Below are positions 37,582 to 39,528 of a stretch of 64,000 nt of DNA, piece after piece. Location: the NCBI RefSeq assembly GCF_003977615.1, contig NZ_RYZR01000005.1, positions 186,001-250,000 of the forward strand. The letters are read 5' to 3'. The stretch comes from Dyella dinghuensis. Lineage in GTDB: Bacteria; Pseudomonadota; Gammaproteobacteria; Xanthomonadales; Rhodanobacteraceae. The stretch's first letter is position 1. Every line of letters begins with the position of its first letter. The notes beneath the pieces are model-generated. The model was given only the letters and a program-made list of their open reading frames with translations, searched no databases and had not been told where the DNA came from. The translations under genes were made by a program, and so were the position numbers.

Positions 37582-38439
37582 TCATTCGATGTTCTGCACT
37601 TGTTCGCGCATCTGCTCGATCAGCACCTTGAGCTCAACCGCCGCATTGGTGCTGCGTGCATCCACCGACTTGGAACCGAGCGTATTGGCTTCGCGATTGA
37701 ATTCCTGCATCAGGAAATCCAGGCGGCGGCCGACCGGCTCTTTAAGACCCAGCACGCGACGCGTTTCGCCGATATGCGTGCTCAGACGGTCAAGCTCTTC
37801 ATCGACATCGCTGCGGGTGACTTGCATTACCAGTTCCTGCTCAAGGCGTCCCGGATCGGCAGGTTGTTTCAGATCTGCCAGACGCGATTCGAGCCGCGCG
37901 CGCAAGGCGATACGAATCTCCGGCATCCAGCCACGTACATCTGCTACGACGCGTTCGATGCCATCGAGCCGTTCGCGCAACATATCGCCGGTCTTTGCGC
38001 CTTCGCGCTCGCGCGTCGCAGTCAGTGCATCCAACGCGCGATCAAGCACGTCGAGCAGCGCCATCTGCTGCACATCCTGGTCGACCTCCGCATGCTGCAG
38101 CACGCCGGGGAAGCGCAGCAGTTCGGTGAATTCGACACGCATGCGCGGGAAACGCGTTTCCATATCCAGCGCCAAGTCGGACAACCGCCCCAGCATCGCG
38201 CCATCCACCTTGAGCGATTCCCCACGCGACTCGCCCCGGCGCACGATCACATCGACCTTGCCGCGCGAAAGACGCGCCGCAATGCGCTCGCGCAATGCGG
38301 GCTCGAAGCTGCGCAACTCTTCAGGCAGGCGCGGGCTGATCTCCAGATAGCGATGATTCACCGTCCGCAGCTCACAGGTCAGCGTTCCGGCGGGAGAAAG
38401 GGCCTCGGCAGACGCATAAGCGGTCATGCTGCGAATCAT
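37582..38439 (-). CDS. YicC family endoribonuclease-like protein
   Basis: A 285-residue protein of the YicC family. The start MIRSMTAYASAEALSPAGTL fits the family N-terminus, followed by LRTVNHRYLEISPRLPEELR. The C-terminal DUF1732 part has SDVDEELDRLSTHIGETRRV and VGRRLDFLMQEFNREANTLG, ending in the conserved AAVELKVLIEQMREQVQNIE. E. coli YicC has been reported to act in RNA decay. It is divergent from rph across the large palindromic element and upstream of gmk, a common order in Lysobacterales. Confidence 0.93.
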   Translation of the reverse strand: MIRSMTAYASAEALSPAGTLTCELRTVNHRYLEISPRLPEELRSFEPALRERIAARLSRGKVDVIVRRGESRGESLKVDGAMLGRLSDLALDMETRFPRMRVEFTELLRFPGVLQHAEVDQDVQQMALLDVLDRALDALTATREREGAKTGDMLRERLDGIERVVADVRGWMPEIRIALRARLESRLADLKQPADPGRLEQELVMQVTRSDVDEELDRLSTHIGETRRVLGLKEPVGRRLDFLMQEFNREANTLGSKSVDARSTNAAVELKVLIEQMREQVQNIE

Positions 38440-38506
38440 GGAGTTAAGGCCCACGCTGTTAAGAAAGAGGGCAATGGTAAACTGTCCCGCCCTAACTTGC
38501 CCAATC

Positions 38507-38799
38507 AAGGGATGCTCTGATGTGTTCTGCGTAGGTGGCATGATGTCCAGAAGGCCTGCAGCGTGTGTTGCGCGGCGCTGGGAAGACTGGCCGTCTTGCC
38601 AAGCTGCGCGGCACAAGCTGCGGGCCTTCTGGACATCACCCCATCATTCAAATCCAATATGCCGGGGCCGGTACTGTCTGCCCGCATCTCTTCGGTGCGT
38701 TGGCTCGACAGACGGCCAGTCTGCCTTCGCCAACGCTCCTGCGATCTGCGAGCAGACAGTACCGGTGACACCTACGCAGAACACATCAGAGCATCCCTT
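38507..38799. repeat. 293-bp nested palindromic element (MITE-like or structured RNA) abutting rph
   Basis: The ends are perfect 31-bp inverted repeats: 38507-38537 (begins AAGGGATGCTCTGATGTG) and 38769-38799. Inside are two large hairpins. Arm A has 38542-38562 pairing with 38617-38637 (20 of 21), then TGTGTTGCGC pairing with GCGCGGCACA (two G-U pairs if RNA), then an AAGAC/GTCTT tip with loop TGGCC. Arm B has a perfect 14-bp stem (38668-38681 with 38752-38765), then GCGTTGGC/GCCAACGC, then a CAGAC/GTCTG tip with loop GGCCA. The right end touches the rph ATG at 38800. No open frame of interest lies inside. It could be a non-autonomous mobile element or a cis-acting RNA. Confidence 0.85.
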
Positions 38800-39528
38800 A
38801 TGACAACAGTGTCCCGCCCTAGCGGCCGTGCCAGCGACCAGTTGCGCAACATCGCCATCGAACGCCACTACACCCGGCATGCCGAAGGCTCCGTGCTGAT
38901 CTCTTTCGGCGATACACGCGTGCTATGCACCGCCAGCGTGGAAGACCGCATGCCGGCCTGGTTGCGCGGCAAAGGTGAAGGTTGGGTCACGGCCGAATAC
39001 GGCATGCTCCCTCGCGCCACCTCCAGCCGTACGCAGCGCGAAGCGACGCGTGGCAGCCAGGGTGGCCGCACCATGGAAATCCAGCGCTTGATCGGCCGCA
39101 GCCTGCGCGCCTGCGTGGATCGCCAGGCACTCGGTGAACGCGTCATCACACTCGACTGCGATGTCTTGCAGGCCGATGGCGGCACGCGCACCGCAGCCAT
39201 CACTGGCGCCTATGTCGCATTGGTCGATGCAGTGACCGTGCTGATGCAGCGCGAGAACCTGCGCCGCAATCCGATCATCGGTGCGGTGGCGGCGGTCTCC
39301 GTCGGCGTCTATCAAGGCATGCCCGTGCTCGATCTGGATTACGCCGAAGACGCCAACTGCGACACCGACATGAACGTCGTGATGAACGACGGCGGCGGCT
39401 TTATCGAAGTGCAAGGCACCGCCGAAGGTCACGCATTCCGCCGCACGGAAATGGACGAGATGCTGGGACTGGCCGAGAAAGGCATCGCCGAACTCGTTCG
39501 ACTGCAACGCGCGGCACTCGCAGGATGA
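38800..39528 (+). CDS. rph: Ribonuclease PH
   Basis: A 242-residue phosphorolytic 3'-5' exoribonuclease that trims tRNA 3' ends. The start [20 protein letters not shown] matches the family opening (RP-GR--DQ-R). Core motifs follow: [58 protein letters not shown] and the catalytic [20 protein letters not shown]. No Shine-Dalgarno sequence is visible. The bases before the ATG are the right arm of the 293-bp palindromic element, so the initiation region would be base-paired in a full-length transcript. It overlaps rdgB by four bases. Confidence 0.97.

Follow-up and report, generated by a model that had tools for sequence, protein, structure and literature searches.

A transposase-less element of 293 bases (38507-38799) lies in front of rph in the window, i.e. 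the whole stretch of 64,000 nt that was analysed. As the first-pass annotation saw, its right end (38799) directly abuts the rph start codon at 38800. Does this element regulate RNase PH, or is it a mobile repeat inserted at the gene? The annotation had proposed both readings. The features bearing on this question are listed below.

37582..38439, minus strand: divergent gene, presumably yicC-like, its start probably near 38439, at a distance of 67 nt from the element
38475..38483, plus strand: promoter-like TGGTAAACT before rph, in 16 of 16 genus genomes, putative function
38507..38540, plus strand: left terminal inverted repeat, exact match to the right one over the outer 31 bp, IS5-like outer end GGATGCTCTGA
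38541..38638, plus strand: arm A hairpin, G.U pairs kept in the inner part
38639..38667, plus strand: small linker hairpin CCCC...GGGG, predicted by the fold
38668..38765, plus strand: arm B hairpin, internal mismatches conserved
38766..38799, plus strand: right terminal inverted repeat, abuts the rph ATG
38800..39528, plus strand: rph (RNase PH), TIGR01966, E 6e-114

Structure of the element

Repeat comparison and folding confirmed the 31-bp perfect inverted ends and the two large internal hairpins noticed at first pass; the outer stems of the arms (20/21 and 14/14) could be read off the sequence as described. The terminal repeats (38507-38540 and 38766-38799) are 97% identical over 34 nt, with the outer 31 exact. 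The halves of arm A (38536-38576 and 38603-38643) match at 83% over 41 nt, its loop being the 13-mer AGACTGGCCGTCT at 38584-38596; those of arm B (38668-38704 and 38729-38765) match at 81% over 37 nt. Beyond these two arms we saw a small third hairpin in the linker, in place of which copies of ∼271 bp carry CCC-TTCG-GGG. The RNA fold of 38490-38820 reached -216.4 kcal/mol versus -119.7 (sd 5.6) in 100 shuffles (z = -17), none of which was as good.

Two details of the annotation had to be changed. Instead of two G-U pairs in arm A, comparison with the family pairing gives four G.U pairs in its inner part. The absence of coding capacity does not hold as to reading frames, since mechanical ORFs of 88 and 125 aa span the element and longer ones enter it from both sides; it holds in so far as neither of the two spanning ORFs scores above cut-off against Pfam. 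A plasmid search for the element returned nothing.

The rph locus with and without the element

The empty site in relatives was found at rph in all 15 other genomes of the genus; in these, 5-10 nt lie between a conserved TTGCCCAA-like stretch and the ATG. As the 15 relatives are empty at rph and TGGTAAACT is upstream of the gene in all 16 genomes, the window copy is an insertion of this lineage; the element now separates TGGTAAACT from the rph ATG. Judged by these loci, the rph copy was inserted recently, between the ATG and a promoter-like site that is conserved, and is not an ancestral rph regulator. The proposal of an established cis-regulator of rph is thus not supported, the element being present at this gene in 1 of 16 genus genomes. 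The missing Shine-Dalgarno sequence, correctly noted, is native to the gene: the 15 empty relatives have no obvious one either (by eye). As to the start being ‘locked in the stem’, the ATG is outside the closing stem; it is the preceding 34 nt that lie inside it in the fold.

A 12-bp direct repeat around the element, TGTCCCGCCCTA, was considered as a target duplication and rejected; it exists without the element, as a TGTCCCGCCC-like sequence is found at both places in empty-site relatives, e.g. L138.

Conservation in front of one and the same gene was not found: rph carries the element in 1 of 16 loci, thyA in 2 of the 15 loci that could be read (the start of a sixteenth was unreadable) and aat in 2 of 16. 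The annotation had tied its regulatory and mobile-element ideas to recurrence of the sequence and to conservation at this locus; the sequence does recur, and at rph it is not conserved.

Comparison of the two occupied aat loci (L032, L036) with empty ones indicated that the stop of the upstream gene formerly overlapped the aat start; by eye, the upstream gene now seems to stop inside the element's left end.

Copies and host range

Other copies were found in the same genome, in the genus and in the family. A blastn search of the own genome gave full copies at 100 (the window's), 82, 83, 80, 79 and 78% identity, one divergent copy at 70%, and weaker or partial matches. Within the genus 15 of 16 genomes (own included) had matches and one had none. 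In a family sample at least 61 of 197 genomes matched, and in an order sample at least 32 of 299 (31 in the same family, one with short partial matches); these are lower bounds because three and two candidates per genome, respectively, were scored.

An exact 19-mer of arm A occurred in 52 stretches of named genomes, assigned to Dyella, Rhodanobacter, Frateuria, Rhodanobacteraceae or Lysobacterales bins, plus two outliers. Fifty of the 52 match the element by blastn (L179 weakly); L191 and L199 do not. One outlier, L178, holds a full copy with the same contig number and coordinates as a copy in G015, a genome placed in the same genus as the window; in L199, the other outlier, the element is absent. 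By the named records, the host range is one bacterial family, Rhodanobacteraceae. Several matches, most of them outside the genus, span the inner part only (bases 33-263), since the end sequences differ; in six such copies (L055, L057, L066, L071, L074, L075) the two ends can nevertheless pair with one another at 24-26 of 26 bases.

For further analysis we took 112 copies, the best-ranked matches to the window copy, a choice that over-represents the window copy's own subfamily. Context was counted in 109 of them (L007, L062 and L125 were dropped) and 108 were aligned (L007, L062, L086 and L125 were dropped); L009 and L020, partial or very divergent, are in neither set. Literature searches gave no description of this repeat family among the best-ranked papers.

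A probable IS5-type miniature element

The family combines terminal inverted repeats with several dispersed copies, sites that are empty in relatives and a partner with the same ends, and the element itself encodes no transposase. The 4-mers flanking the core GGATGCTC...GAGCATCC on the outside were identical in 23 of 108 copies (CTAG 12, TTAA 8, CTTG 2, CAAG 1), versus a mean of 6.7 and a maximum of 14 in 1000 random re-pairings of the flanks. The remaining 85 copies have no identical flanking 4-mer; in the window copy the flanks are CAAG and CTTA, not a clean duplication.

A search of the genus for DUF772 (PF05598) gave 18 matches in 6 of 16 genomes. Inverted ends were sought at all 18 loci, and only L155, from another genome of the genus, clearly matched; L164 was similar (TTAGGGAAACTCTGA). 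In L155 (739-1940) a transposase ORF is enclosed by TAGGGATGCTCTGA ends 1202 bp apart, and 13 of the 14 TAGGGATGCTCTGA bases also terminate the window copy. The ORF matches PF01609 (E 3e-24), PF05598 (E 6e-21) and the IS5-family transposase model NF033581 (E 3e-92); it stops short of the full profile and may be incomplete or damaged. The own genome yielded no DUF772 transposase in the PF05598 search, and its copies may therefore be stranded.

The same ends also bound reduced derivatives, some of 149-172 bp with a single hairpin and others of only 42-113 bp. Inverted ends, flank duplications, the L155 partner and the reduced derivatives together argue that the family is an IS5-type MITE of ∼270-295 bp with symmetric ends, two long hairpin arms and a linker hairpin, which would have been mobilised in trans by an IS5-family transposase. 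The first-pass reading as a MITE or interspersed palindrome was right in this respect, given the copies, the empty sites, the IS5 partner and duplications at the family level.

Several further observations concern the ends and the derivatives. L257 and L262 (from two genus genomes, with similar flanks), L259 and L260 are single-hairpin versions of 149-160 bp with the same ends; L257 and L262 lie 2 nt from a called start codon, and their end holds CGGAG, a variant resembling a Shine-Dalgarno sequence. L006, L087 and L098 (4, 9 and 6 nt from a start) likewise have CGGAG instead of CAGAG in the right end, with the left end matching; such a pair of ends occurs in only 4 of 108 copies. In the right flanks of L121, L134 and L275 there is an end like that of a second element, as would result from elements inserting into or beside one another. 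G005 and G004 carry many copies with TTCCACG ends, several short ones having matching CTAG or TTAA flanks and looking young.

Position and polarity relative to genes

The idea that lying against an ATG matters was borne out at the level of the family, with a strong excess of right ends at start codons. Of the 109 copies, 83 have the start of an outgoing gene on the side of their right end and 46 on that of their left end. Where the neighbours are codirectional, the plus strand of the element is sense in 52 cases and antisense in 15 (binomial p 6e-6). In 24 of 109 copies the right end has a start codon no more than 6 nt away; for the left end this is so in 3. As background, with both sides taken together, a start is equally near at 4.5% of 39,571 intergenic points (50 named loci and the window, element-bearing gaps left out); with those gaps the value is 4.0% of 53,495 points, and for YTAR points it is 2.6% of 428. 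The left-end count is therefore close to one-side chance (about 2.3%), and the right-end count about tenfold that. At divergent sites the gap on the right is the shorter one in 22 of 30 cases (Wilcoxon p 0.0025).

Genes were called by a home-made codon score, and 20 of the 24 near-start proteins, as well as rph, were checked by family search. In NCBIfam 17 of the 20 matched, 8 from within the first four residues, and rph matched too; the proteins adjacent to L006, L114 and L047 had no NCBIfam match. Besides the rph copy, the own genome contributes the near-start copies L003 (rluD), L004 (L-serine ammonia-lyase) and L006. Among those matched were RluD, L-serine ammonia-lyase, Aat (twice), ThyA, DnaQ, FolB, a Ppx/GppA-type and a PdxR-type protein, DnaX, a KdpE-like protein, ClpS, MrcA, PdxH, RapZ, a member of the PilT/PilU family and FolK. 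The RapZ start may be wrong, as the family match begins at residue 18; aat and thyA are each counted twice, from related species. On these matches the start codons of the near-start genes are believable. Copies of the Dyella sub-lineage that includes the window copy mostly have their plus strand sense to the next gene, and many stand directly before starts of core genes.

The polarity is not a property of the whole family, since it is absent from the TTCCACG-end subfamily (codirectional 8 versus 5; 0 of 19 near a start) and from the 16 copies of other genera (6 versus 5; 0 of 16). It is confined to Dyella copies without a TTCCACG-type end, with 24 of 74 near a start versus 0 of 34 for the rest, a grouping made post hoc. 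Identical target duplications are kept in 10 of 19 TTCCACG copies and in 13 of 89 others (p 0.0008), for which reason that subfamily looks younger; copies with and without a duplication differed significantly neither in orientation (p 0.24) nor in nearness to a start (p 0.48).

What could produce such a polarity? One could think of targeting, i.e. a transposase or folded element that prefers translation starts in one orientation. An excess of about tenfold (24 of 109 versus ∼2.3% a side) is high for passive survival, and at one divergent locus two species carry copies in opposite orientations (L004, L047); these stand next to opposite genes, and in both the right end is at a start. However, the ends are nearly symmetric, so that orientation cannot come from end recognition alone; the younger-looking TTCCACG subfamily, richer in duplications, shows no preference for starts, and only 2 of the 24 near-start copies have an identical duplication. 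We regard targeting as quite unlikely, the least probable of the explanations weighed here.

Another explanation would make the right end, composed of the junction GTGACA and the terminal repeat, a portable source of expression: an outward promoter, GTGACR-18-GAGCAT, with its start point on or just before the ATG, would yield leaderless or very-short-leader mRNA, and copies would be retained at start codons because they drive the gene. This pair is the best promoter-like one at the right end of 13 of 24 near-start copies, and at that of the window copy, whose mirrored left end reads ATGCCA where the right has GTGACA; by eye, the ATG follows GAGCAT by a few nucleotides in most near-start copies, about the place of a start point. 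Copies with GTGACA are near a start in 13 of 25 cases and those with GTGACG in 11 of 49 (p 0.017, one of 344 tests). Yet the second hexamer matches TATAAT at only 3 of 6 positions, a promoter scan found none inside the element, right end included, and with an approximate matrix near-start copies scored no higher than others (5.3 versus 6.1, p 0.09). The conserved promoter-like site upstream of rph is, moreover, retained. An outward promoter appears improbable to us.

The idea that the stem carries an upstream Shine-Dalgarno sequence to the ATG was rejected, as anti-Shine-Dalgarno energies show no near-start gain: the mean left of the copies was -3.6 kcal/mol near starts (24 copies) and -4.4 far from them (47 copies; p 0.24), with -4.2 for random 18-mers. 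Nor did upstream ORFs enter the element in a preferred frame; only 5 cases passed the score, with no pattern.

Concerted change of the paired arms

Of 10,312 cells counted in the paired columns of the 108 aligned copies, 9,496 are Watson-Crick. The end columns vary in their letters and yet are paired in almost all copies, and the junction bases are invariant. In comparisons of copy pairs, which are not independent of each other, one-sided changes reach a plateau at ∼5 that keep a wobble and ∼5 that break the pair; two-sided ones go on increasing, from 1.3 (identity of 93% or more, 4 pairs) to 19.7 (70-75%, 1770 pairs), where about half of them are of the transversion type. One-sided changes seem to arise first and to be matched or lost later.

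Kept pairing, invariant junction bases and the sense-strand bias of the copies could be signs of a regulatory RNA: a plus-strand leader with a four-way junction, whose arms might contact each other by their complementary loops and which would control the gene behind it. In inner arm A, G.U pairs far outnumber A.C (116:13 in columns of Watson-Crick consensus, four further columns being non-Watson-Crick; sign test p 0.012), which fits this idea. In inner arm B, however, the lean is opposite (10:53, p 0.057 over columns), a reversal unexpected for a single functional plus-strand RNA; column skew was not significant in the ends (41:60) or in the outer arms (13:13 and 21:35). Against such an RNA are also the absence of the element at rph in 15 of 16 genomes, the diverse functions of the named downstream proteins, and an Rfam search with no family at gathering score (six matches, all to microRNA-precursor models and far below theirs). 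Kissing between the complementary 13-mers of the two arms is not supported, as loop pair 94/216, the only variable one, shows no clear covariation (C-G 51, C-A 24, U-A 14, U-G 13). Finally, transversions are frequent among the coordinated changes, and single changes keep a wobble pair about as often as they break pairing. RNA-level control of this kind is, in our judgement, an unlikely explanation, on a par with the outward promoter.

The similar numbers of wobble-keeping and breaking changes favour copying from arm to arm over classical RNA selection, though selection may also have acted. The paired arms probably change together partly through arm-to-arm copying during replication; template switching between imperfect inverted repeats is treated in the available parts of PMC7202029 and PMC8604942. 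Since a single 13-mer makes up both loops, standing in arm B inverted relative to arm A, the G.U skew may reflect one ancestral hairpin present in both orientations.

Likely origin and effect of the rph copy

The explanation that we consider probable is an IS5-type MITE, mobilised in trans, that became a structured leader of rph in this lineage, with sense copies selected at starts. A copy would have landed between the promoter-like site of rph and its ATG; if rph is transcribed from that site, the element would form a structured 5′ leader. The transcription and processing of this leader are inferred from sequence. In sense orientation the RNA would close on itself with the AUG just outside the stem, so that initiation could still be allowed, and the long stem might be trimmed by RNase III or RNase E beforehand. 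Reversed insertions at start codons would be lost. Selection after insertion is the likeliest reason for the polarity; it is favoured by the symmetry of the ends and by the lack of bias in the duplication-rich TTCCACG subfamily.

For the effect of the right end, a tolerated or processed leader ranks first, followed by the outward promoter and true RNA regulation at equal odds. A broader proposal is that one lineage of the MITE turned into a portable start-codon module that works one way: its right end before core-gene ATGs would supply or permit expression, by a processed leader, ribosome entry or a promoter, and the element would replace native leaders harmlessly, one gene after another. We regard this as a tentative possibility, well short of an even chance.

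One end, mostly in one orientation, against the starts of core genes such as thyA, dnaX, dnaQ, rph and clpS, would amount to a natural test of translation initiation. The family would allow one to examine initiation behind a very stable helix and mobile DNA on its way to becoming gene leaders. Its copies also record concerted arm change in long palindromes across many species, from which template-switch correction could be measured from sequence alone.

Comparison with known repeats

Promoters or sites of RNA processing are known from MITEs of bacteria. In the available portions of PMC2649163, PMC2229807 and PMC10969869, the small mobile repeats Correia, ERIC and CIR can provide promoters, RNase sites or two-armed RNAs. 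The likenesses drawn to these three are by description and not by sequence.

Like the Dyella element, Correia or NEMIS repeats (CREE) of Neisseria are short and non-autonomous with inverted ends; these ends reportedly form promoters and are cut by RNase III (parts of PMC2649163, PMC10969869 and PMC2229807). The Dyella element differs in its CTAG/TTAA targets and two internal arms, and docking of Correia at start codons is without mention in the available portions of the same three papers. ERIC is likewise a repeat of the MITE type; it is transcribed, and its effect on the mRNA depends on its orientation (available part of PMC2229807). It is, however, 127 bp long and is reported to act on the upstream gene via RNase E, whereas the bias of the Dyella element concerns the downstream start codon. 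The RNA of CIR (Caulobacter/Brucella) is drawn as two long arms and a linker, as here; the accessible text of PMC2229807 sets CIR against repeats closed by a stem of the 5′ and 3′ ends, while the Dyella element has such an end stem too, and CIR has a GANTC motif and belongs to another lineage. The IS5-family insertion sequence shares with the window copy 13 bases of the L155 ends and with the family the CTAG/TTAA flanks; the Dyella element differs from it in having no transposase gene.
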